Source: Desulfobulbaceae bacterium
GTDB lineage: Bacteria > Desulfobacterota > Desulfobulbia > Desulfobulbales > Desulfocapsaceae
Length of the DNA stretch: 33,483 nucleotides
NCBI GenBank assembly: GCA_008933635.1
Contig: WBUQ01000037.1
Location: forward strand, 1-33,483
Direction: 5' to 3'
Both the position numbers and the translations under genes were made by a program. Below the pieces are notes generated by a model. It searched no databases and was not told where the DNA came from. It saw only the letters and a program-made list of their open reading frames with translations. Below, piece after piece: positions 699-11,568 of the stretch; the first letter of the stretch is position 1; each line of letters starts with the position of its first letter.

Positions 699-3509
699 AT
701 GCAGGTGCGGAACGGAAAATCAATTGCACGGACAGTATGCCTCGCTATCCTCGTGACTGCGCTGTCCCTGCATCCGATGATCGCCCGGGCGGATTCTCCC
801 GGGGCGGGAAGCGGCGTGCAACCGGCTGCGATTACGGTGGTGATGGACAACAACTATCCGCCCTTCGTCTTTCCCGGCAGCGACGGCCGCGCCCAGGGAG
901 TGCTCGTTGACCAGTGGCGTCTGTGGGAACAGAAGACCGGCATCCGGGTCAACATCGAGGCCATGGACTGGGACAGTGCCCTCAAGGGTATGCAGGAGGG
1001 CCGCTTCGATGTAATCGATACTATCTTCAGGACAAAAGAACGGGAGGGATGGCTTGCTTTCACCCAACCCTATGCCCGCCTGGAAGTGCCCATCTTCTTC
1101 AATCGGGAGATCGGCGGCATTTCGGGTATCGCTTCCCTCAGGGGTTTTGTCGTCGCGGCCAAGAAAGGCGATGCCGCGGTCGATCTCCTGCAGCGGGAAG
1201 GGATCGACAACCTGGTGCTGTTTGACAGCTACGAGGCCATCGTCCGGGCGGCGAAGGAGATGAAGGTCAACGTCTTCGTCGTCGACAAGCCGCCGGCGCT
1301 GTATTTTCTCTACAAGTTCAATATCCACGAACAGTTCCGGGAATCCCCGCCTCTCTACGTCGGCGAGTTCCATCGGGCTGTCGGCAAGGGGAACACCCAT
1401 CTGCTGCGACTGGTTGAGGACGGGTTTGCCAGGGTGACCGAGGCGGAACTGCAGGCCATTGACAGAAAATGGCATGGCTCATCGATCCAGGATCATTTCC
1501 CGTATCAGCTCATCCTGCCGGCGGCGGCGATTCTGCTGCTCCTGTTCCTGGCCCTGATCGGCTGGAACCATCTGCTGAAACGGGCGGTGGCGCATCGCAC
1601 CAATGATCTCCGGCAGAGCGAGGAGAGATACCGGCAGCTGTTCAATGTCGGTTCCGATGCCCTGCTGGTGATCGATGTCGACACCCGGTCGCTGATCAAT
1701 GCCAACGAGGCGGCCGTCGAGCTCTATGGCTATACCAGGGAGGAACTACTGGCGCTCCGTATCACCGACCTCTTCGCCGACCCGGAGGAGGGGGAGGGCC
1801 GCCAGATCGTCAGCAGCCGCAGCGGTATTCTCCATATCCCGCTGCGATACCACAGGAAAAAGGACGGAACGGTGTTTCCCGTGGAGATCTCCTGCAGCTT
1901 CTTCGAGCTTGACGGACAGCGGCTGCGTCTGGCCGCGATGCGGGATATCAGCGAGCGGATGCGGACGGAGCAGGAACTGCGGGAGAGCCGTCAGTTCCTC
2001 AGCGAACTGATCGAGAACAGCGGCAACCTGATCTGTGTCAAGGACCGGGACGGGCACTATACCATGGTCAACCGGAAGTGGGAGGCAGTCACCGGTCTGC
2101 AGCGCGAGAACGTCATCGGCAGGACCGATGCCGACCTCTTCAGCGCCGGGGATGCCGAACAGTTCCGTCGCAACGACCTCGAGGTGATCGAAACGGGACG
2201 GGTGATCGAAAAGGAGGAATATCTCGATGACGCCGACGGCAGGCGCTTCTTCCTGGCGATCAAATTCCCCGTGTTCAGCGATGACGGCACCGTATCCGCG
2301 GTCTGCGCGATGATCACCGAACTGACGGAGCGGCGTCAGGCGGAAGAGGAGCGGGAGAGGTTGCGGGAACAACTGTCACAGGGGCGAAAAATGGAGTCCA
2401 TCGGCCGGCTCGCCGGTGGCATAGCCCATGATTTCAACAATATGCTCGGCGTTATCCTCGGTCATACGGAACTGGCGATGTTGAAGCTCGGCCCGAAGGA
2501 TCAGCTCTACGGCAACCTCAAGGAGGTCGAGAAGGCGGCCAAGAGATCAGCGGACCTCACCCGGCAGCTGCTCGCCTTTGCCCGCCGGCAGACGGTGGTG
2601 CCGAAGGTCCTCGACCTCAACGAGACCGTGGCCGGTATGCTGAAGATGCTGGAGCGGCTGATCGGCGAGGATATCGAGGTCGTCTGGCAGCCGGCCGGCA
2701 ACCTCTGGCCGGTCAAGATGGACCCCTCCCAGATCGACCAGATCCTGGCCAATCTCTGCGCCAACTCGCGGGATGCCATCGCCGATGTCGGCAGGATAAC
2801 GATCTCTACGACCAACGTCAGTCTCAGCAGCTCGTTCTGTGTCGGCCATGAGGGCTGCGCCGCCGGCGATTTTGTCATGCTTTCGGTTGCCGATACCGGT
2901 TGCGGGATGGAAAAGGATATGATCGACCTGCTGTTCGAGCCGTTCTATACCACCAAGGAGGTCGGCAAGGGCAGCGGGCTGGGATTGCCGACGGTCTACG
3001 GCATCGTCCGTCAGAACAGCGGCTTTATCAAGGTGGACAGTGAAGTCGGCGGTGGCACAACCATCAGGATTTACCTGCCAAGGCACCACGAAGTCACCGT
3101 TCACCGGCAGGAAATCCCGGCGGCGGCGAAAGGTGCTCCGGGCGATGCCACCGTGCTGCTGGTCGAGGATGAACCGGCAATCCTCGATATGGCCAGAATG
3201 ATGCTCGAAAACCTCGGCTACCACGTGCTGACGGCGACGACGCCGGCCCAGGCCATCCGTCTCGTCTCGGATTATGGCGGCACCATCAACCTGCTGGTCA
3301 CGGATGTCATCATGCCGGAGATGAACGGCTGGGAGCTGTCAAAGAAGCTGCAGGCGATCCAGCCCGACCTGAAACGGCTGTTCACCTCAGGGTATACCGC
3401 CGATGTCATCGCCCATCACAATGTGCTGGAGGAAACGGTGCATTTCGTGCAGAAGCCCTTCACCATCGAGGCCTTGTCAGACAAGGTGCGCGAGGCCCTG
3501 GCGGGTTGA
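699..3509 (+). CDS. Hybrid sensor histidine kinase with periplasmic SBP_bac_3 domain
   Basis: A 936-residue one-piece phosphorelay protein. In order: signal or anchor segment (about 10-32), an SBP_bac_3-type amino-acid-binding domain (about 44-260, opening with ITVVMDNNYPPFVF), a membrane helix (about 271-289), two PAS domains (about 308-420 and 432-545), HisKA with the phospho-acceptor His577 in GGIAHDFNN, a HATPase_c domain (N box near 686-694, ADTGCGM at 731-737, GKGSGLGL at 756-763) and a receiver domain with phospho-acceptor Asp869 in VTDVIMPEMNG. It should bind a small solute in the periplasm and signal through its own receiver. A phosphotransfer partner or output regulator is not in the window. 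The start has GAGGTGAG directly upstream. It converges on the Gly-rich gene at 3542. Confidence 0.93.
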   Translation: MQVRNGKSIARTVCLAILVTALSLHPMIARADSPGAGSGVQPAAITVVMDNNYPPFVFPGSDGRAQGVLVDQWRLWEQKTGIRVNIEAMDWDSALKGMQEGRFDVIDTIFRTKEREGWLAFTQPYARLEVPIFFNREIGGISGIASLRGFVVAAKKGDAAVDLLQREGIDNLVLFDSYEAIVRAAKEMKVNVFVVDKPPALYFLYKFNIHEQFRESPPLYVGEFHRAVGKGNTHLLRLVEDGFARVTEAELQAIDRKWHGSSIQDHFPYQLILPAAAILLLLFLALIGWNHLLKRAVAHRTNDLRQSEERYRQLFNVGSDALLVIDVDTRSLINANEAAVELYGYTREELLALRITDLFADPEEGEGRQIVSSRSGILHIPLRYHRKKDGTVFPVEISCSFFELDGQRLRLAAMRDISERMRTEQELRESRQFLSELIENSGNLICVKDRDGHYTMVNRKWEAVTGLQRENVIGRTDADLFSAGDAEQFRRNDLEVIETGRVIEKEEYLDDADGRRFFLAIKFPVFSDDGTVSAVCAMITELTERRQAEEERERLREQLSQGRKMESIGRLAGGIAHDFNNMLGVILGHTELAMLKLGPKDQLYGNLKEVEKAAKRSADLTRQLLAFARRQTVVPKVLDLNETVAGMLKMLERLIGEDIEVVWQPAGNLWPVKMDPSQIDQILANLCANSRDAIADVGRITISTTNVSLSSSFCVGHEGCAAGDFVMLSVADTGCGMEKDMIDLLFEPFYTTKEVGKGSGLGLPTVYGIVRQNSGFIKVDSEVGGGTTIRIYLPRHHEVTVHRQEIPAAAKGAPGDATVLLVEDEPAILDMARMMLENLGYHVLTATTPAQAIRLVSDYGGTINLLVTDVIMPEMNGWELSKKLQAIQPDLKRLFTSGYTADVIAHHNVLEETVHFVQKPFTIEALSDKVREALAG

Positions 3510-3541
3510 GCGGGCAGAAGGCGGTTTCGTCAGGCGGGTGT

Positions 3542-3838
3542 TTACGATCGGCCCCCGCCACCGCCATTGCCGCTGCCGCCGGAACCATTGCCATTGCCGC
3601 TGCCGCCTCCACCGCCGCCGCTGCCACCGCTGCCGGAATCATTGCCATTGCCGTCGGATCCACCGCTGCCACCGGCTCCGCTACCGCCTGACCCGCTGCC
3701 GCCCGAACCGCCCGAACCGCCTGGACCGCTGCCGCCTGACCCGCCGCCGCTGCCGCCCGCTCCGCCGCCGCTGCCGGCCTCACTCCTGTTCCCTGAGCCA
3801 TCGCCGGGCCCGCTCTGCAATTGCCCGGCGCCTGCCCC
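3542..3838 (-). repeat. Gly/Ser-coding low-complexity tract
   Basis: On the plus strand this reads as runs of CCGCCGCTGCC-like units. It encodes the Gly/Ser tail of the protein at 3542-4549. Imperfect short-unit repetition makes length variation by slippage plausible. Proline-rich and alanine-rich frames on the other strand are artefacts of the same composition. Confidence 0.8.
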
Positions 3839-4549
3839 CCGGTTGATGGCTTCCCCGAAGCGCCGCGCGGTGGCCTCCATGTCCGCGCTGCTGCTCTCGA
3901 CGGCCTGACGCAGGGTCCGCATCTCCTCGCTGCCGTACCCGCGCGCCAAGGCGGTGCCTATCAGCTCGGCCGTGGTTCCGGAGGAGACGTTCTGGCGGAC
4001 CATCGTTCTCGCGGTGAGCAGGGTCTGAATCATCAGGCTGCGGGTTTGAGGATCGCTCATGTCCCGTGTCCTGGTATGCAGAGAGGCAGTGATCCGCATG
4101 GCCTCCTGTTCGGTCAGTCCGGCTGCGAGACAGTCGGCCAGTGTCGCTGTGAGCCGGTCATCCCGGGTCGGCGCGAGCCGCAGTGCCAGCCGCTCTGCAA
4201 GCCGGTAGCGGTCTCTGACCCTGGCGGTCGCCGTCAGGATTGTCTCCGGGGGGATACCCTTGGCGATACCCTCGTGGATCTTTGCCAGCACCGGACCGGC
4301 GGCGTCTGCCGGCCCGCCGTCGGCGCTCAGCTGCTCCCCGGCACGGAGCATCTGTTCTTCGGAGAACCGGGCCCGTCTCATCGCCTGGATCAGCGATGCC
4401 GCCTCCTCCGGCCGGATTCCGGCCTGTGTCAGCTGGCGCTCGATCGCCTGCGCTCCTGGCAGGGCAATCAGCTCTGCGCCCGGTTGCTCACCGGCGCCAG
4501 CCACTATAGCCGTCAGCAGGATGAGCAGTGCGGCAATACCTGTTTTCAT
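3542..4549 (-). CDS. Secreted protein with helical N-terminus and Gly/Ser-rich tail
   Basis: A 335-residue protein of unknown function and last gene of the sigma-factor operon. Residues 1-20 form a signal peptide (KTGIAALLILLTAIVAGAG). Residues about 25-237 are predominantly helical, rich in Ala, Arg, Glu and Leu. From about residue 238 to the end the chain is almost only Gly and Ser with some Asn and Asp (GSGG and GNGN units), a low-complexity tail that could be an extracellular linker or matrix segment. The ATG at 4549 has AAGGAG eight bases upstream. A GTG three codons earlier is less likely because it overlaps that site. The gene follows the lipoprotein stop by five bases, so it is co-transcribed. 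No catalytic motif was seen. Confidence 0.75.
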   Translation of the reverse strand: MKTGIAALLILLTAIVAGAGEQPGAELIALPGAQAIERQLTQAGIRPEEAASLIQAMRRARFSEEQMLRAGEQLSADGGPADAAGPVLAKIHEGIAKGIPPETILTATARVRDRYRLAERLALRLAPTRDDRLTATLADCLAAGLTEQEAMRITASLHTRTRDMSDPQTRSLMIQTLLTARTMVRQNVSSGTTAELIGTALARGYGSEEMRTLRQAVESSSADMEATARRFGEAINRGAGAGQLQSGPGDGSGNRSEAGSGGGAGGSGGGSGGSGPGGSGGSGGSGSGGSGAGGSGGSDGNGNDSGSGGSGGGGGGSGNGNGSGGSGNGGGGGRS

Positions 4550-4554
4550 TGTCG

Positions 4555-4923
4555 TCACTCCTTGTTCCGGACGACAGTCGCCCGTCTCCGGTGATCGTCC
4601 GTTCCGGGCAGATGGATGCAGTTCACCTGCCCAAAGTCATCGGCCTCGCGATAGCGGCAGTCGGGTATGTGCACAGTGCCGTCCACGAGGTAGAAATATC
4701 TGAACTCTTCGTCGGCGAGCCCCCTTTTCACCCACAGGCCGTCGGCGTCTCTGCCGAGGGCGTGGCGGCGGTAGTTGTCCCGGGAAGAGAGAAAGACCAC
4801 GCTCCTGGCATCGGGCGCCTCGAGGTACAGCGTGACCTCGCCGGATTTCCCGCCGCCGAAATGGCTGGGGGCGGCGCATCCGGTGCAGAGCACAAGCAGG
4901 ATGCCGCTAAGAAACCGGCGCAT
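4555..4923 (-). CDS. Lipoprotein with glycogen-binding (CBM48/AMPK-like) fold
   Basis: A 122-residue protein. Residues 1-17 look like a lipoprotein signal (RRFLSGILLVLCTGC, lipidated Cys17; the -3 residue is Cys, slightly non-canonical). The rest resembles the glycogen-recognition domain found in isoamylase N-domains and AMPK beta: a VTLYLEAPDARSVVFLSS strand pair, then FRYFYLVDG, then a P...E.DDFGQVN ending. That last part repeats the pattern seen in the membrane protein encoded just upstream (YSYMIDG, then DP...DDFGGEN), suggesting duplication of the sensor fold. It starts at an ATG with GGAGGAG upstream and overlaps the end of the upstream gene by 17 bases. Ligand binding is an inference from the fold; no enzymatic motif is present. 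Confidence 0.75.
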   Translation of the reverse strand: MRRFLSGILLVLCTGCAAPSHFGGGKSGEVTLYLEAPDARSVVFLSSRDNYRRHALGRDADGLWVKRGLADEEFRYFYLVDGTVHIPDCRYREADDFGQVNCIHLPGTDDHRRRATVVRNKE

Positions 4924-5503
4924 TGTCTCCTCCGACGACGATCACCGAGTTTTCGCCACCAAAATCGTCCTGCTCCCGGGTGGCCACCGAGGGATCGGCC
5001 ATCCGGTTTTGTCCATCGATCATGTAGCTGTAACGGTGCTCGCCGGGAGGGACTTTGACGGTGACGGCCCAGTAGCCGGAGTTGCCGATTTTCCGCATCG
5101 GCAGCGGATTCCAACCGGTGAAGCTGCCAACGATCCGGGCCTGGCTGACCTGCGGCAGGTAGAGGACGAAGCGATGCTCAGTTGCCGGGGAGGGGCTGAC
5201 CGGTTCGTCCAGGCCGGATTGCAGGAGAAATCCCAGACCGGCGAGGAGCAGCGCGGTGACGAAACCGGCCATCGGCGCCAGCCAGGTACGTATCCCTCTG
5301 TCCCGGAGAAAAACGGGGGGGTGGTTCGATTGCACTGTGGCCGGGGCTGTCTCCAGGGCAACAGCGAGTACCTTCTCCTGTTGCAGCAGTGCGACCGTCT
5401 CATCGGCGAACCGCCGGTCGTCCCGGACAATCCCGACGAAGGTGATTTTTTCATCCAGGTCCAGTTCGTCGTCGATGAACTGGGATATCAATGTTTCACT
5501 CAT
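4907..5503 (-). CDS. Anti-sigma-like membrane protein with periplasmic CBM48 domain
   Basis: A 198-residue single-pass membrane protein encoded right after the sigma factor, overlapping its end by 8 bases. Residues 1-50 are acidic and helical (SQFIDDELDLDEKITFVGIV, then RDDRRFADETVALLQQEK) and resemble the cytoplasmic segment of anti-sigma factors. A membrane helix spans about 72-95. The periplasmic part (about 110-192) matches the glycogen-binding fold: FVLYLP, VGSFTGWNPLPM with Trp131, GEHRYSYMIDG and DDFGGENSVIV. The chosen ATG has GCAGGAGGAAG upstream; an in-frame extension lies inside the sigma gene and was rejected. Position and topology suggest it restrains the sigma factor and senses a glucan or a protein outside the cytoplasm. 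The role is inferred; the fold is well supported. Confidence 0.8.
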   Translation of the reverse strand: MSETLISQFIDDELDLDEKITFVGIVRDDRRFADETVALLQQEKVLAVALETAPATVQSNHPPVFLRDRGIRTWLAPMAGFVTALLLAGLGFLLQSGLDEPVSPSPATEHRFVLYLPQVSQARIVGSFTGWNPLPMRKIGNSGYWAVTVKVPPGEHRYSYMIDGQNRMADPSVATREQDDFGGENSVIVVGGDNAPVS

Positions 5504-5975
5504 GGCCTTCCTCCTGCATGAGTTGCCGAATTTTTTGTCGTGCCCGGTGCACCTTGACCTTGACATTGGCGACGGAGTATCCCCGCATGTCGGCTATCTG
5601 CTGATAGTTCAGGTCGCCGCCGATAACCAGGGCGAGGAGTTCCCGCTCATCGTCGCCGAGCGATTCCATGGCGGTGAGGATCTTCCTCGATTGTTCACGC
5701 AGGATACAGGTTTCCTCCTGGTCGGGCCGGTTGCCCGGCAGGTCGTCCCGCAGGGGGACTGTCCGGCTGTCCCGCCGCCACTGATCGATGAAGAGATTGC
5801 GACCGATGCTGAACAGCAGGGCCGGGGTGTGCTCTCGATCCCGGTACCTTTCCAGGTAGCGGACGAAGGTCTCCTGAACGAGGTCAGCGGTCGCACTGAC
5901 ACTGCCAGTACGGCGAAGGAGATAGCCGTGGAGCCTGTCCCGGTTTTCCGTATAGAACTGTCGAAACCTGTCCAT
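5496..5975 (-). CDS. ECF-type RNA polymerase sigma factor
   Basis: A 159-residue sigma-70-family protein with only regions 2 and 4, the ECF layout. Region 2 spans about 5-75 (ATADLVQETFVRYLERY at about 29-45 and LLFSIGRNLFIDQWRR at about 53-68). Region 4 spans about 100-155 (LGDDERELLALVIGGDLNYQ, then the helix-turn-helix IADMRGYSVANVKVKVHRAR). It directs RNA polymerase to a dedicated promoter set, probably the paired motif on both sides of this intergenic region. There is no Shine-Dalgarno site before the ATG at 5975, but a CGTT -10 element ends only 11 bases upstream, so the mRNA is probably leaderless or nearly so. It leads a four-gene operon down to 3542. Confidence 0.92.
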   Translation of the reverse strand: MDRFRQFYTENRDRLHGYLLRRTGSVSATADLVQETFVRYLERYRDREHTPALLFSIGRNLFIDQWRRDSRTVPLRDDLPGNRPDQEETCILREQSRKILTAMESLGDDERELLALVIGGDLNYQQIADMRGYSVANVKVKVHRARQKIRQLMQEEGHE

Positions 5976-5986
5976 TGCAGATGTAT

Positions 5987-6013
5987 AACGCAGATCCCTG
6001 TGCAAGGTTACAG
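5987..6013 (-). promoter_or_regulatory. ECF promoter of the sigma-factor operon
   Basis: On the minus strand CTGTAACC (6013-6006) is followed after exactly 15 bases by CGTT (5990-5987). This is the general shape of ECF promoters (an AAC-containing -35 and a CGT-type -10). The same 8-mer, spacer length and CGTT occur on the plus strand at 6154-6180. It implies autoregulation of the sigma factor. Confidence 0.75.
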
Positions 6014-6153
6014 AAATAATGCCGGAGAACGACCCGGGGCTCCATCCCCGTATCCCGGGTTGTCCCGAACGAATACATATTCCGTGCAAGGCAGGCAGGA
6101 TCAGAGGTTGTCGGGTCCTCCATGACGTCATTATACCCCGGGAGGAAAAAAAC

Positions 6154-6180
6154 CTGTAACCATTCCATCGCATCGTCGTT
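6154..6180 (+). promoter_or_regulatory. ECF promoter of the divergent Gly-rich gene
   Basis: CTGTAACC at 6154-6161, a 15-base spacer, and CGTT at 6177-6180: identical in core and spacing to the promoter of the sigma operon facing the other way. The expected transcription start is about 75 bases before the ATG at 6263. The A-rich stretch just upstream (GGAGGAAAAAAA, 6141-6152) may act as an UP-like element. Confidence 0.75.
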
Positions 6181-6262
6181 TCCGGAGCAGCGACAACAAT
6201 GCCTGGACAGACAGCCGGATGGGCCGGCTGGCTGGCAGGCAGATGCCGAAAAAGGTGATGGA

Positions 6263-6808
6263 ATGAATTGGAACAGGCAACTGGCACGGATCTGCATGGT
6301 GGGTATCACAGTGGTTTTCCTCTCCGCCCCGGCAGTGGCCGGCAACGGGTACGGACCCGGCGACGGGACGGGTAACGGTGGTGTCGGGCCACAGGACGGC
6401 ACCGGTTATGGCCCTGGCGACTGCACGACGGCGATCCTGCAGCTGGACGGGCTTCCTCTGCTGGCCCAGGGTGGCGGTGGGAACGGCAACGGCGGCGGTA
6501 ACGGCGGCGGTAACGGCGGCGGCAACGGTGGTGGCAATGGCAACGGTGGCGGCAACGGTGGCGGCAACGGTGATTGCGACGGCACCGGCAACAGTGCGGG
6601 GGGCAGCGGTGGTGGAGATGGCGGATACGGGCCGGGCGACGGTACGGGTAACGATGGTGATGGGCCCGAGGACGGCAGCGGCTATGGCCCGGGCGGTTCC
6701 GGGGACAACAGCGGATACGGGCCGGGTGACGGGACGGGCTATGATGGCGAAGGTCCGGAAGATGGGACCGGCTACGGTCCGGGTACCGGAATCTGCATCA
6801 ACGCGTGA
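6263..6808 (+). CDS. Secreted Gly-rich protein with GYGPGDGTG repeats
   Basis: A 181-residue exported protein of unknown function, transcribed away from the sigma operon. Residues 1-27 are a signal peptide (RQLARICMVGITVVFLSAPA, cleavage near AVAG). The mature part has a 24-residue unit, GYGPGDGTG then N/Y, then D/G-G-x-GP, then x-DG-T/S-GYGPG, at residues 29-52, 121-144 and 151-174. A GGGN tract lies at about 69-103. Cysteines at 54, 105 and 178 follow the repeats and could form disulfides. The periodic D-G-T-G-x-G and P-x-D-G pattern recalls calcium-binding or adhesive extracellular repeats, but no named family is recognised. AAAGGTGATGGA precedes the ATG. The gene shares its promoter motif with the sigma operon and is a likely regulon target. 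Confidence 0.75.
   Translation: MNWNRQLARICMVGITVVFLSAPAVAGNGYGPGDGTGNGGVGPQDGTGYGPGDCTTAILQLDGLPLLAQGGGGNGNGGGNGGGNGGGNGGGNGNGGGNGGGNGDCDGTGNSAGGSGGGDGGYGPGDGTGNDGDGPEDGSGYGPGGSGDNSGYGPGDGTGYDGEGPEDGTGYGPGTGICINA
6347..6784 (+). repeat. Three 72-base coding repeats around a GGN trinucleotide tract
   Basis: The units encoding the 24-residue repeat are at about 6347-6418, 6623-6694 and 6713-6784. Between the first and second lies an imperfect GGCGGTAAC-type tract (about 6467-6571) encoding Gly/Asn. The repeats keep their protein sequence better than their codons, which suggests selection on the protein. Confidence 0.75.
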
Positions 6809-6866
6809 CAGACCAGCCGTCCTGCGACAAGATAGACAGTCGCCGGTCAGCGCGGGATGAGCGGGG

Positions 6867-6885
6867 CGGGGATGTTCATTCCCCG
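6867..6885. terminator. Possible hairpin terminator between convergent genes
   Basis: CGGGGA (6867-6872) pairs with TCCCCG (6880-6885) around a 7-base loop, between the stop of the Gly-rich gene and overlapping the stop of the OsmC-like gene. The stem is only 6 bp and there is no clear T tract. Confidence 0.3.
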
Positions 6886-7298
6886 TCCTCTATCCTGATT
6901 TCCCAGGAGATATCCATGATCTTCCGGTACATGGCGCTGACCCCGCAGTATGTGTCCATCGACAATTCAACCGCCCGCCGCAGCTTTCCGGCATTCAGTT
7001 GTCTGCCGGTGAACCGGTAGACGATGTGCATCGCCGTATAGACCGATGGGGTGTCGTCTGTCAGCTCGCCTTCGACAGTGATGGCGATGGCGGCGACCGG
7101 AATCCGCATTTTTTCGAGGATGGCTGCCACGTCGACGCCGGTGCAACCGGCCAGGGCAACCATCATCAGCATCTTCGGGCTGGCACCGCTGTTCTCTCCG
7201 CCGTGAGCGGCGCCGGCATCGGTTCGCACTTCGTGATCGCCCACTCTGGAAACAAAGGCCAGCTTGCCCTGCCAGGTGCAGGTGATGGTGTTCTTCAT
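6876..7298 (-). CDS. OsmC/Ohr-family protein
   Basis: A 140-residue OsmC-fold protein. The family uses two cysteines to reduce organic peroxides or to sense redox stress. Cys52 sits in MLMMVALAGCTGVDVAAILE and Cys118 in DTYCGVSAM, the usual positions of the peroxidatic and resolving residues. The length is normal. It starts at ATG 7298; GGAG lies about 12 bases upstream, a long spacing, but no better in-frame start exists. It is downstream of the di-haem peroxidase on the same strand with 155 bases and a hairpin between, so it may be a separate unit. The shared theme is peroxide handling. Confidence 0.85.
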   Translation of the reverse strand: MKNTITCTWQGKLAFVSRVGDHEVRTDAGAAHGGENSGASPKMLMMVALAGCTGVDVAAILEKMRIPVAAIAITVEGELTDDTPSVYTAMHIVYRFTGRQLNAGKLRRAVELSMDTYCGVSAMYRKIMDISWEIRIEDGE

Positions 7299-7378
7299 CC
7301 GGTAGAGGTACTCCTGCAACAAAGATTGTTCTGTGGAGCGGCCTCCCCTCCGGGCTGCCGCTCCTTCCACGTATTTCA

Positions 7379-7409
7379 GGCTACCCTTTTCCCGGTGAAA
7401 AGGCGAGCC
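7379..7409 (-). terminator. Hairpin between peroxidase and OsmC-like gene
   Basis: CCTTTTC (7385-7391) pairs with GAAAAGG (7397-7403), loop CCGGT, flanked by GGCT/AGCC arms (7379-7382 and 7406-7409). It lies 45-75 bases after the peroxidase stop on the minus strand. No T tract follows, so termination would be weak or partial. Confidence 0.4.
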
Positions 7410-7453
7410 TTCTCCGCCAGTCGTCCCTGACGATGCCGGGTCGCATCAGGCCT

Positions 7454-8539
7454 TCAATCGCCCTGTGCCGCGGTCTGGGGAGCGACGGTGTCCGTCTGGT
7501 CGGTGAGGGTCAGGAGAAACTGCACGACGGCGTCAACCTGGTCCTCGGTCATCCCGAGATTGCCGATGGCGTTGGTGACATTCTCCGCGACATCGGGTGT
7601 CAGGCCCATGGAATCCCTTGCATTCTTGAAATTGACCACGTCCCTCAGGGTGGGGAAGTAGCCGTTATGCCCATAGGGGGCGGTCTTCTCGACGTTGCGG
7701 AGGGTCGGGATCTTGAACTTGCCTTCCTGGGCTTTTTCCCCGACGACCGCACCCAGTCCGAGGTCATGTTCGTCCCCGGTAACCAGGGGATTTTCGGGGA
7801 TACCGATGTTGGCGTACCCGAAACTGGTGAACAACGGCCCGTCACCTCTCGATCTCCCCATGAAATGGCAGGAACTGCAATGCATCTTGAACAGGCCCTG
7901 GCCGTATTCCTCAACCGGAGTCAGCGACCTGCGGTCGAAGCGTGAATTGAATTTCAGCACTTCGGGGGAACGTTCATAGGCGGCGATGGCCCTGGCGAAG
8001 AGGTTGTATGCCTCGTCTTCCTGGTCGAATGAGTCGAAATCATAGACAATTTTAAATTCCTCGGCGTAATTGCCTTCGATGACCTCAACGATTGCCGCTA
8101 CGTCCGGCATGTTCATTTCCACCGGGTTGAGCGGCGGTCCCTGCGCCTGCTCCGCCAGCGGATCTCCCAGCAGCGAGCCGTCGGCCCGGCTGTCCCAGAA
8201 CAGACCGCCGAAGTATTCGCCGGTTCTTTTCGTTTTGTAGCGTGCCGGACTGTAGCCGGCATATGCCGCAGTAGGGGCATTGCGTCCTCCCTTCTGGACC
8301 CCGTCGGCGCCAGTGGAAACGAACGAATTGTAAGGATCGGCGGCGTTTTCCGGATCGGCGAAACCGGTCGCTTCGTCGTGGCAGCTCTGGCACGACTGTG
8401 TCTGGTTGAACGAAAATTCGACATCCATGTACATCGCCTTGCCGAGTTGTTCCTCCGGTGTCAGGTCGACTGCCATCGAGGTGTTTGCAAGACAGCCGAG
8501 GGTTACAGCCAAAGCGCAAGCCAGTATTCGTTTCTTCAT
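7454..8539 (-). CDS. Di-haem cytochrome c peroxidase (MauG/CCP family)
   Basis: A 361-residue periplasmic enzyme that would reduce hydrogen peroxide with electrons from c-type cytochromes. A signal peptide covers about 1-23 (KKRILACALAVTLGCLANTS). Two c-haem motifs are present: CQSCH at 50-54 and CSSCH at 221-225. Between them are FWDSRADGSL (about 114-123) and PPLNPVEMNM (about 135-144), typical of the family, and near the end KIPTLRNVEKTAPYGHNGYF (about 276-295). The length fits bacterial CCPs. The ATG at 8539 has GGAGG upstream. The family also holds MauG-like oxidases; the NPVEM block fits peroxidases. No partner cytochrome is encoded nearby. Confidence 0.92.
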   Translation of the reverse strand: MKKRILACALAVTLGCLANTSMAVDLTPEEQLGKAMYMDVEFSFNQTQSCQSCHDEATGFADPENAADPYNSFVSTGADGVQKGGRNAPTAAYAGYSPARYKTKRTGEYFGGLFWDSRADGSLLGDPLAEQAQGPPLNPVEMNMPDVAAIVEVIEGNYAEEFKIVYDFDSFDQEDEAYNLFARAIAAYERSPEVLKFNSRFDRRSLTPVEEYGQGLFKMHCSSCHFMGRSRGDGPLFTSFGYANIGIPENPLVTGDEHDLGLGAVVGEKAQEGKFKIPTLRNVEKTAPYGHNGYFPTLRDVVNFKNARDSMGLTPDVAENVTNAIGNLGMTEDQVDAVVQFLLTLTDQTDTVAPQTAAQGD

Positions 8540-8925
8540 TGTGCCGCCTCCGTTGAAATGGGTTCTGAAGTGCCCGGGAATCATGACATTTTCCGCACGC
8601 AATTACCCATGCGGATTCATCACCCATCCGACAGAAGGACGGAGGATGTGTTCCCGATACGGGTGATGGCGTGCAGGTCTCAGATATGCAACGCTTGAGG
8701 CGGGGTGAGGTTACGGATTATTTGTGATAGGATGGAGGGGGCCGGCAAGCCCATGTCGCAGCCGGCCGTGATGGGGCGGAGGTCCCGCCCGGATGCTGCA
8801 CGGGCGGGATGCCTTCAATCGTCAGTCGGTCGGTAAGGCGGTCTGTTCCGCGAGGCCATTCCTGACACAGTGAATGCGCATGAACCGGAGACGGGAGGCC
8901 CGGGGAGGGGCGTTCGAATTTCTCC
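8540..8925. other. Intergenic region before the peroxidase gene
   Basis: 386 bases without a convincing gene. It must hold the peroxidase promoter, but no clear -35/-10 pair was found on the minus strand. The only clear structure is the hairpin at 8783-8809. Confidence 0.6.
8783..8809 (-). terminator. Perfect 9-bp hairpin after the second hybrid kinase
   Basis: TCCCGCCCG (8783-8791) pairs perfectly with CGGGCGGGA (8801-8809) around a 9-base loop, about 117 bases downstream of the kinase stop on the minus strand. No T tract follows. Confidence 0.45.
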
Positions 8926-11568
8926 TCACTCCGCTTTGCGGTCGAGGATGTCCCGCAGTTTCCGCAGCAGTTCGGTGGGAGTGGCCGGTTTGGGCAGGAA
9001 GTCGAAATGCTCCTCGAGCAGGCCCTGGCGGCGGATGATGTCGGTGGTGTAGCCGCTGGTGAACAGGGCCTTGATATCCGGTCGCAGACGGCGGATTTCC
9101 TCGTACACTTCCCGGCCGTTCTTTTTCGGCATGATCACGTCGAGAAACAGGCAGTCGATCTGTCCGCCGAAGGCCCGGTACTGGTGCAGGCCGTCCTCGC
9201 CGTCCCCGGCCTCGATGACCCGGTAGCCGAACTGCTCCAGTACGCCCCGTTCGAGGTGGCGGAGAACCGCATCGTCCTCTATCAGCAAGATCGTTTCGTT
9301 GCCTCCCCTGGGGGGAGCGGAGGCGCCCAGATCCTCTTCCCTGATCGCCGTGGTTGTCGGCAGGTAGATCCTGAAGGTCGTCCCCCTGCAGATTTCGCTG
9401 TAGACGTTGATCTCGCCGTTGTGCTGTTTGACGATGCCGTGGAGAATCGACAGCCCCAGGCCGGTGCCCTTGCCGGATGCCTTGGTGGTGAAGAACGGTT
9501 CGAAGATCCGCATCCTGGTGGCCTCATCCATGCCGCAACCGGTATCGGAAACGGCTATCTCCACATAGCGCCCAGGCGGCAGGGAGGCAAGCGACGGAAT
9601 TTCACCGCCTGCCAGGTTGACCGCGCGGGTGCCGATGCTGAGGATGCCACCTTCCTGCATGGCGTCCCTGGCATTGGTGGCGAGATTCATCAGCACCTGT
9701 TCGATCTGGCCCCGGTCGGCGATCAGCACGAGATCCTCATCGGCCAGTTCGGTTCTCAGCTCGATGTCTTCGCCAATGATCCGGGATAGGAATGTCTTGA
9801 ATTGCCTGATGCAGTCGTTGATATCGAACGCTCTCGCCTCCATCTCCTGCTTGCGGCTGAAGGCGAGGAGACTCTTGGTCAGGGCCGCCGCCCGCTGCGA
9901 CGACCGCAGGATCTCGTCGACATAGGCCCGGTTGGCGCTGTCCCGGTCGATCTGCATCTGCAGGAGGTTGGCATAGCCAATGATCGCCGTCAGGATATTA
10001 TTGAAATCATGGGCTATGCCTCCGGTGAGGATGCCCATTGCCTCGATTTTCTGGGTCTGCCGCAGTTGCGCCTCGAGCTTTCTCCTCTCGGTAACATCCT
10101 CTAACGTGCCGTCAATCCAGTCGATGTTGCCGGAGCCGTCATGGTGGGCCTTGGCGTTGGCGGCAACCCAGATTTCAGTCCCGTCTTTTCTCTGCATCAG
10201 GATTTCCCGTTTGGTGAGATGGCCGCTGCGGCGGAGTTCTTCCAGTTGCGGGCTCCGGTCCCGGGCATCCGGATAGAGGGCGGAGATGGAGGAGGCCATC
10301 ATCTCCGCCATCGAATGATAACCGAACATCGCCACCATGGCCGGGTTGACCTGGATGAACCCGCCCGCATCGTCAGGCGCGCAGCGGTAGACCCCAAGCG
10401 TCAGGTTGTCGACCAGCGTGTGGTATCGCTGTTCGCTGGAGCGCAGTGCGGCCTCGGCGATGCTTCGCCTGCGGATATTGATCAGCAGGACGACCACCGT
10501 GATGAACATGGCGGCAAAGCCGATGCTGATCCCCCAGATCAGCTTCTTGTTGACCGTATAGAATGAGGGCGGATGGTTCACGATGTCGCTGCCCGGCGGG
10601 AGACTCTCCGGCCGGATGGCGAACCGCTGCATCTGTTCGAAGTCGAAGCGCAGACGGTTCGGACTCTGCATGACGACCGGGATGGATCCGGCAGGTTCTC
10701 CCGCCAGGATCCGCCGGGCAATCCTGCCGGCGGTCTGTCCCTGGGCGTAGCCGCTGGTCAGCATGCCGCCGACGATGCCGTAGCCGAGGTGGAAGTCCCA
10801 CAGGCCATAGATTGGCACCCGGCTCCCGGACGACATCGCACCCGGCACTTCAAAGAAATCGACATAGCTGCCGGTCAGGTCCTGCTGGTAAACGGTGAGC
10901 AGGACGAGGCTGCCGGCGCTGAGTGAGGCGACCCGTTCGATCAGGTCCCGGACCGGCAGATCCGGCAGGATGTCGATGTCGACCCGGTCGCGGTAGCGGG
11001 GGAGCAGGTCGGAGAGCTTGTTCTCGACGATGCGCCCGGTGGTCGTGTGGTCGATGACGACATGGATGGTTCTGGTATCGGGATGGAGACTGAGCATCAG
11101 GTCGATGGTGGCGGCGATGTCGGCGTCTTCATTGACACCGGTATATCCCCGGCGGCCGGCGATTTTGCCTGGGTCGAACCAGTTGATGCCGCAGAAGACC
11201 ACCGGGACCGCACCGAAGATGTCATCGCGGAAGAGGAGGAGAAAATCGAAGGCGTCGTTGTCGGTGGCGATGATCAGGTCAAAAGGGGTTTTCCTGTATT
11301 TGGTCGAATAGAGGGTGCGGAGGGTGGCGGAATAAATCGGGCCGTGAATCCATTTGGTACCCATGAACTCGATGAAGAAGCTGCATGACTTTCTGTCGGG
11401 ATCGATGCTTTCCAGAATTCCCAGCAGCTGTTCATCGGTCCATTTGTACCCCTGGTGATAGGAGTTGAGGATGAGGATATTCTTTTTGTCCGCGGACGCT
11501 GCGGTCCCGGCCCAGAGCAGGACGAGCGCGAAGGGGAGAACCAGCAGGAAAGGGCGGAGGCTGCGCAC
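8926..11568 (-). CDS. Hybrid sensor kinase with ABC_sub_bind-type periplasmic domain
   Basis: An 880-residue protein. A signal peptide (about 1-26) precedes a periplasmic domain (about 28-325) of the ABC substrate-binding type seen with ILILNSYHQGYKWTDEQ, LIIATDNDAFDF and PVVFCGIN; this differs from the SBP_bac_3 fold of the first kinase. A membrane helix is at about 344-365, a PAS domain at about 378-495, HisKA with His520 (GGIAHDFNN), HATPase_c (NLATNARDAM, SDTGCGM, GKGTGLGL) and a receiver with Asp810 (FLDVIMPKKNG). The start is GTG at 11568 with only a weak ribosome site, but a strong promoter lies 50 bases upstream. It should sense a small ligand and pass phosphate to its own receiver. 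The solute-binding gene at 11697-12473 is just upstream and may be functionally linked. Confidence 0.92.
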   Translation of the reverse strand: MRSLRPFLLVLPFALVLLWAGTAASADKKNILILNSYHQGYKWTDEQLLGILESIDPDRKSCSFFIEFMGTKWIHGPIYSATLRTLYSTKYRKTPFDLIIATDNDAFDFLLLFRDDIFGAVPVVFCGINWFDPGKIAGRRGYTGVNEDADIAATIDLMLSLHPDTRTIHVVIDHTTTGRIVENKLSDLLPRYRDRVDIDILPDLPVRDLIERVASLSAGSLVLLTVYQQDLTGSYVDFFEVPGAMSSGSRVPIYGLWDFHLGYGIVGGMLTSGYAQGQTAGRIARRILAGEPAGSIPVVMQSPNRLRFDFEQMQRFAIRPESLPPGSDIVNHPPSFYTVNKKLIWGISIGFAAMFITVVVLLINIRRRSIAEAALRSSEQRYHTLVDNLTLGVYRCAPDDAGGFIQVNPAMVAMFGYHSMAEMMASSISALYPDARDRSPQLEELRRSGHLTKREILMQRKDGTEIWVAANAKAHHDGSGNIDWIDGTLEDVTERRKLEAQLRQTQKIEAMGILTGGIAHDFNNILTAIIGYANLLQMQIDRDSANRAYVDEILRSSQRAAALTKSLLAFSRKQEMEARAFDINDCIRQFKTFLSRIIGEDIELRTELADEDLVLIADRGQIEQVLMNLATNARDAMQEGGILSIGTRAVNLAGGEIPSLASLPPGRYVEIAVSDTGCGMDEATRMRIFEPFFTTKASGKGTGLGLSILHGIVKQHNGEINVYSEICRGTTFRIYLPTTTAIREEDLGASAPPRGGNETILLIEDDAVLRHLERGVLEQFGYRVIEAGDGEDGLHQYRAFGGQIDCLFLDVIMPKKNGREVYEEIRRLRPDIKALFTSGYTTDIIRRQGLLEEHFDFLPKPATPTELLRKLRDILDRKAE

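Follow-up and report, generated by a model that had tools for sequence, protein, structure and literature searches.

A likely extracytoplasmic function sigma/anti-sigma switch for exported Gly-rich proteins in sulfate-reducing bacteria and their relatives

Extracytoplasmic function (ECF) sigma factors usually activate their own genes together with that of their inhibitor. In the class I pairs RpoE-RseA and SigW-RsiW, a sigma factor with regions 2 and 4 is followed by a single-pass membrane protein whose N-terminal domain is helical. We found the same arrangement in a Desulfobulbaceae bacterium, on a contig of 33,483 nucleotides (nt) (WBUQ01000037.1, referred to here as the window) that is one of 240 in a 4.55-Mb assembly (GCA_008933635.1). 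Its membrane protein ends in a CBM48 domain, which has a glycogen-binding fold, and the operon lies beside a divergent gene for a secreted protein with GYGPGDGTG repeats. The genes, their domains, their conserved order and a promoter-like element common to them are established here. We consider it likely that the locus encodes a switch in which an ECF sigma factor and its anti-sigma factor govern exported Gly-rich proteins. Across sulfate reducers and related bacteria, a sigma factor that serves its own operon and genes for Gly-rich secreted proteins is probably restrained by a membrane protein carrying a glycogen-binding fold; autoregulation, a further likeness to RpoE-RseA and SigW-RsiW, is predicted here.

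The locus spans window positions 3542 to 6808 and comprises five genes, all of them where a preliminary description had placed them and with the spacing it had reported: successive minus-strand genes overlap by 8 nt and then by 17 nt, and a 5-nt gap follows. The first minus-strand gene (5496–5975) encodes a protein of 159 residues that, by its sequence, is an ECF (group 4) sigma factor, being short and having regions 2 and 4 (Pfam Sigma70_r2, 9.2e-12; Sigma70_r4_2, 1.2e-09) and no match to region 3; the sigma70-ECF model TIGR02937 scored 77.5 bits against a cut-off of 42.9. The start given in the list of open reading frames (ORFs), 6287, lies too far upstream, and relatives start near the matching M-x-x-F-R. 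Overlapping the sigma gene by 8 nt is the gene for the CBM48 membrane protein (4907–5503, minus strand, 198 residues), which in turn overlaps by 17 nt the gene for a CBM48-like lipoprotein (4555–4923, minus strand, 122 residues). The last gene of the operon (3542–4549 from its ATG start, minus strand) encodes a secreted protein with a helical domain (window 3815–4489) and a Gly/Ser tail. On the plus strand lies the gene for the GYGPGDGTG-repeat protein (6263–6808, 181 residues); the ORF list begins at an earlier in-frame ATG, 6122, and the signal-peptide-like start is at 6263. An Rfam scan of window positions 3000–9000 returned no match at the gathering score.

The preliminary description had named the lack of conserved gene order in relatives as grounds for abandoning its proposal; the order proved to be widely conserved. 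In a first search for relatives, the CBM48 protein matched in 26 of 58 genomes at E ≤ 0.001, and was near full length in only ten loci, the window included. In all ten, which belong to the window's own family, the CBM48 gene comes immediately after the sigma gene, and the CBM48 lipoprotein and the helical protein accompany the pair in nine; the tenth, L032, has the sigma factor and CBM48 protein only. A scan of named genomes with the alignment of these ten confirmed 117 relatives, of which 80 were kept and are referred to as the named loci; seven appear identical to contigs of the first ten loci. In 79 of the 80, the end of the sigma ORF is no more than 120 nt from the start of the CBM48 ORF, the exception being L107, where a sigma ORF is present with odd boundaries. 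Where the two genes are this close, a 4-nt overlap is the commonest junction (45 of 79). The lipoprotein gene follows in 75 named loci and the helical-protein gene in 72 (74 if found anywhere in the locus), with all four genes in order in 70. Such recurrence across many genomes argues for a gene set beyond chance. The best matches were mostly titled Desulfobulbaceae, and the titles of the 80 loci include Desulfocapsa, Desulfosarcina, Desulfobacterales, Syntrophaceae and others besides, some reading only Deltaproteobacteria, Proteobacteria or uncultured bacterium.

When the phylum was sampled evenly, the full-length CBM48 form occurred in 19 of 395 genomes, the window's own among them (E ≤ 4.4e-54), the next match standing at 1.3e-19; weaker matches at E ≤ 0.001 were found in 186. 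Among the 21 matches ranking next (E 1.3e-19 to 4.1e-15), we fetched the loci of 14, picked by hand and blind to their neighbours. In all 14 of these distant Desulfobacterota loci, the CBM48 and helical-protein genes lie close together (helical-protein model, E 1e-15 to 7e-8), and 12 have a sigma gene. The two exceptions are L174, which ends at a contig end, and L173 (G091 contig 125), where the two genes are paired and 6.5 kb showed no sigma gene. Among 41 loci collected for different purposes, the helical-protein model matched only L041, which holds a paralogue from the window's own genome. No relative of the CBM48 protein was found in the viral contigs searched.

The membrane protein matched Pfam families AMPK1_CBM (1.8e-09) and CBM_48 (1.5e-06), both over the curated cut-offs. 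An AlphaFold2 model, with a mean predicted local distance difference test (pLDDT) score of 83, comprises three helices within residues 2–51 (2–10, 16–26 and 30–51), a low-confidence linker, a membrane helix at 72–96, which was read off the model and not from a topology program, and the CBM48 part at 107–191. This part superposes on the glycogen-binding domain of AMPK beta1 (1z0n) with a Z score of 13.1 and a root-mean-square deviation of 1.5 over 80 residues, and matches it by sequence profile at 1.3e-08; by both fold and family score, it is a CBM48 domain. A class I anti-sigma domain, according to PMC7406223, consists of an N-terminal three-helix bundle, a linker and a fourth helix. The window protein shares with this class its co-encoding with a sigma gene and a single membrane helix after the N-terminal domain. 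The best evidence for an anti-sigma role comes from the 14 distant loci, in which four of the eight CBM48 proteins scanned carry zf-HC2, the zinc form of the anti-sigma domain, over the Pfam cut-off, and a fifth has a match below it. Given its near-constant position after a sigma gene (79 of 80), the modelled order of helices, membrane helix and CBM48, and the zf-HC2 domains of its relatives, the membrane protein is very probably an anti-sigma factor.

From the upstream sequences of the first ten loci, we derived a promoter-like element, GTAAC-N16-CGT, and examined it over 81 loci (the window and the 80 named loci), 73 of which had not been used in its discovery. With a spacer of 16, it occurs 168 times, whereas every alternative spacer between 8 and 24 gives 7–21 occurrences; if only sites no more than 2.5 kb from the CBM48 gene are counted, the figures are 157 and 0–8. 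In the same loci, four shuffled motifs gave 8–21 matches (3–6 near the gene) and the reversed motif 57 (19 near). By position, 70 of the sites lie upstream of the sigma gene, 42 upstream of the helical-protein gene, 24 are divergent (in 23 loci) and 32 fall elsewhere; all three consensus strings derived read TGTAACCTT, then CGTT. In the window, the element precedes the sigma operon at 5988–6011 on the minus strand (5987–6011 in the form GTAACY-N15-CGTT), where CGT begins 15 nt before the sigma ATG. The same distance recurs at 34 of the 70 sigma sites, when it is taken from the C of CGT to the nearest ATG or GTG that lies 6 nt or more beyond. With CGT so near the start codon, the predicted sigma transcript would be nearly leaderless. 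A second copy precedes the GYGPGDGTG gene at 6156–6179 on the plus strand (6156–6180 in the longer form). An earlier guess at a –35 element, GGTTACAG on the other strand, was dropped once GTAAC-N16-CGT lined up. At positions of about 8565–8602 in L032, two divergent elements stand back to back, forming an inverted repeat whose arms measure 13 bp or more, as judged by eye.

Since the sigma and GYGPGDGTG genes have this element in common, the sigma factor is predicted to control Gly-rich secreted proteins; what the preliminary description had put forward as control thus stands as a prediction. Across the 81 loci, a script rule found a Gly- or DGxG-rich ORF after 18 of the 24 divergent sites and 11 of the 32 other sites, and reading the ORFs by eye added Gly-rich ones in L092, L099, L161, L123, L127, L156 and L157. 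Some site-linked ORFs stay non-Gly-rich, one of them a weakly PAS-like gene in L112. The neighbour families common to at least six named loci included the GYGPGDGTG family, beside the module in 12 of the 80, and a DUF2202-like family in 6 (by eye); others were generic (histidine kinase, ABC ATPase, ligase), and one cluster resembles the antisense frame of the anti-sigma gene. The GYGPGDGTG protein of the window, like the helical protein, matched no NCBIfam or Pfam family at E ≤ 1, and three GYGPGDGTG-type strings did not occur in the literature texts searched. The divergent Gly-rich proteins of L085, L087, L106, L161 and other loci show two repeat styles, GYGPGDGTG and RLKDGSC, sometimes within one protein; several have in common an LLARGGNG-like stretch and a C-terminus of the form C-x-N-A/S. 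In L033 (5207–5836) and L038 (10142–10804), the element precedes genes whose small products contain Cys; one product is weakly PAS-like, scoring below the Pfam cut-off, and the other has no Pfam match.

Predicted targets also lie beyond the five genes, so the initial description of the locus as self-contained is not quite right. Within the 4.55-Mb genome, GTAACY-N15-CGTT occurs at eight sites. Three fall within 2.73 kb at this locus, where about 0.005 would be expected from the control density: those of the sigma and GYGPGDGTG genes and one upstream of a gene for a di-heme protein related to MauG and cytochrome c peroxidase (element at 8691–8714, or 8690–8714 in the GTAACY-N15-CGTT form, minus strand; gene at 7454–8542, minus strand; Pfam CCP_MauG, 6.1e-33), a possible extra target. 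Homologues of this protein occur near the module in four named loci and in the distant locus L169, and the element also stands at one of them, in G036 contig 59 (also L160). Two further sites lie on contig C35, one before a helical-protein paralogue (after a lipoprotein paralogue) and one before a DUF2202 gene. The cluster there (L078, 3800–10987) comprises a choice-of-anchor O protein, the lipoprotein and helical-protein paralogues and the DUF2202 gene; no sigma match was found by model over L040 and L041, or by eye in 11 kb. A cluster of the same gene kinds in G001 includes the sigma and CBM48 protein genes. The remaining three sites have no evident link to the module. In G030 contig 56, an exact site lies upstream of a GYGPGDGTG gene away from the locus.

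These observations suggest a scheme in which the helices at the cytosolic N-terminus of the CBM48 membrane protein would hold the sigma factor, as their position, predicted fold and zinc-type relatives imply. A signal on the periplasmic CBM48 domain would free the sigma factor, probably through loss or proteolysis of the anti-sigma factor, by analogy with RseA and RsiW. Judging by the shared element, free sigma factor would then recognize GTAAC-N16-CGT and transcribe its own operon, such that sigma factor, anti-sigma factor, CBM48 lipoprotein and helical Gly-tail protein rise together in an autoregulated loop. It would also transcribe the GYGPGDGTG gene and perhaps the MauG-like gene and the second genomic cluster.

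Several findings weigh against this scheme. The N-terminus of the window protein shows no significant similarity to those of its zinc-type relatives (hhalign E 0.2), and a separate fourth anti-sigma helix is not seen in its model. By the position rule, 11 of the 81 loci have no sigma site, some of them having a site further upstream (L112, L115, L148, L152), and 6 of the 24 divergent sites have no Gly-rich ORF by the script rule. An exact element is absent from the stretch examined around the GYGPGDGTG genes of G036 contig 81, G025 and G009, and G009 has no full-length match to the CBM48 anti-sigma factor. Three of the four MauG-like neighbours in named loci (L144, L152, L154) likewise have no element. 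Nor is the pattern enriched genome-wide: the own genome has eight sites against nine for the reversed control, and in all eight relative genomes searched the count is below that of the reversed pattern. We therefore rejected a genome-wide regulon drawn from the motif alone; the counts imply that the regulon in trans is small or partly chance, and that most scattered sites are probably chance.

Two proposals for what the CBM48 domain senses are alternative choices of ligand inside the sigma/anti-sigma explanation. The first, which we put forward tentatively as possible, is that the domain binds an alpha-glucan or another envelope or extracellular glycan, that this releases the sigma factor, and that the Gly-rich proteins remodel the surface. 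Besides the close superposition on the AMPK domain, W131 and N185 are invariant across 57 CBM48 sequences, as are Y144 and W145. By alignment, the first two correspond to W100 and N150 of AMPK beta, which, like K126 and W133, are glycogen contacts. Several distant relatives have, by eye, a Trp near the AMPK W133 site, as in DGKKWLPDP, and carbohydrate-sensing anti-sigma factors are known, RsgI being one (PMC12203970). Set against this, neither of the other two contacts is kept in the window's clade, where the K126 equivalent is mostly S, T, A or V and the W133 equivalent mostly R or Q; with these replaced, glycogen binding should not be assumed despite the common fold. The lipoprotein has no W131 equivalent by eye, and we saw no glycan enzyme in the predicted target set. 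The residues thus divide on the preliminary description's claim that the unit reads a glucan: the invariant W131 and N185 speak for it, the lost contacts and the lipoprotein against.

The second proposal, about which we are slightly more doubtful, is a feedback on export or assembly, in which the CBM48 domain binds the co-encoded helical protein or the lipoprotein and the sigma factor is freed when exported Gly-rich material is missing or misassembled. The helical protein had been described as a secreted Gly/Ser protein; it is indeed secreted with such a tail, of low complexity, but consists mainly of a conserved all-helical domain of about 225 residues. In an alignment of 58 sequences, this domain has an invariant K-x-x-E-G-x-x-K motif, K70, E73, G74, K77, A87, R94 and R165 all being invariant, and its structure was modelled with a mean pLDDT of 93. 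Foldseek returned nothing at E ≤ 0.001 and no convincing PDB match; most VIA-align matches were to designed helical repeats (Z up to 10.9) and may reflect a common helical-repeat arrangement only. The lipoprotein, with a lipobox visible by eye in it and its relatives, matched no Pfam family at E ≤ 1 and shows a weak resemblance to the membrane protein (phmmer 5e-4, among the loci searched); against PHROGs, to which only it and the helical domain were compared, the best E was no better than 0.034. The strongly conserved helical motif and the loss of some glycan contacts in CBM48 are consistent with a protein ligand, as is the presence of the helical gene beside the CBM48 gene in all 14 distant loci. 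Because CBM48 and helical proteins are paired without a nearby sigma gene both in L173 and, through the lipoprotein, on contig C35, we take a protein partner nearly as seriously as a glucan. Co-occurrence, however, does not show contact, and in six named loci and L032 the sigma and CBM48 genes stand with no helical gene detected in the stretch examined. A fuller version appears unlikely as a whole: that this is an undescribed family spanning the Desulfobacterota, in which the CBM48 domain of the anti-sigma factor has shifted from sugar to the co-exported helical K-EG-K protein and provides feedback on the export of Gly-rich, DGTG-repeat extracellular material via a dedicated GTAAC-N16-CGT promoter. 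Finally, that the element serves some other regulator or sigma factor, as its purely positional link to this sigma factor and the GYGPGDGTG genes without it would allow, is improbable, given its fixed spacing, its place at the sigma gene itself, a two-block form resembling ECF promoters (such as the SigX-like TGTAAC) and the concentration of sites near this gene set.

No description of a CBM48 anti-sigma factor was found among the literature matches listed; most subscription papers and supplementary tables lay outside the search, and an unnamed entry in an ECF classification is possible. Nor did the literature searched include a paper joining Desulfobacterota with an ECF sigma/anti-sigma pair, an ECF sigma factor with AMPK1_CBM, or an ECF sigma factor with both glycogen binding and an anti-sigma factor, and the portion of PMC7406223 at hand does not mention 'carbohydrate' or 'CBM'. 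The locus offers a testable setting for sulfate-reducer families for which we found no function, namely the helical K-EG-K protein, the GYGPGDGTG/DGSC secreted proteins and, in part, DUF2202. Its promoter sequence lets local targets be sought wherever this sigma factor occurs. Across a phylum, a glycogen-binding fold forms the outer domain of a probable anti-sigma factor, and sensing of sugar or of protein by that domain is directly testable.

Among described systems, SigI-RsgI of Clostridium thermocellum resembles our proposal in having a membrane anti-sigma factor, which there senses extracellular polysaccharide. Its sigma type and sensor modules are reportedly other than those here, and no cellulosome-type genes were seen at this locus. 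The ECF52 and ECF53 systems of Actinobacteria, according to PMC10766802, bring together an anti-sigma part, a membrane part and domains predicted to bind carbohydrate; there, in contrast, it is the sigma factor itself that carries these domains as fusions, and the phylum is another. FecI-FecR likewise has a sigma gene followed by a membrane regulator, but the membrane protein here had no FecR among its Pfam matches at E ≤ 1, an absence from the listed matches that is not proof, and no TonB receptor was noticed beside the module. With the glycogen-binding domain of AMPK beta, the CBM48 domain shares its fold, one stacking Trp and an Asn, whereas two other glycogen contacts are lost and the domain is joined to a membrane helix and anti-sigma-like helices. 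Relative to RpoE-RseA and SigW-RsiW, the locus is set apart by the periplasmic CBM48 domain and by a co-encoded CBM48 lipoprotein and helical Gly-tail protein.

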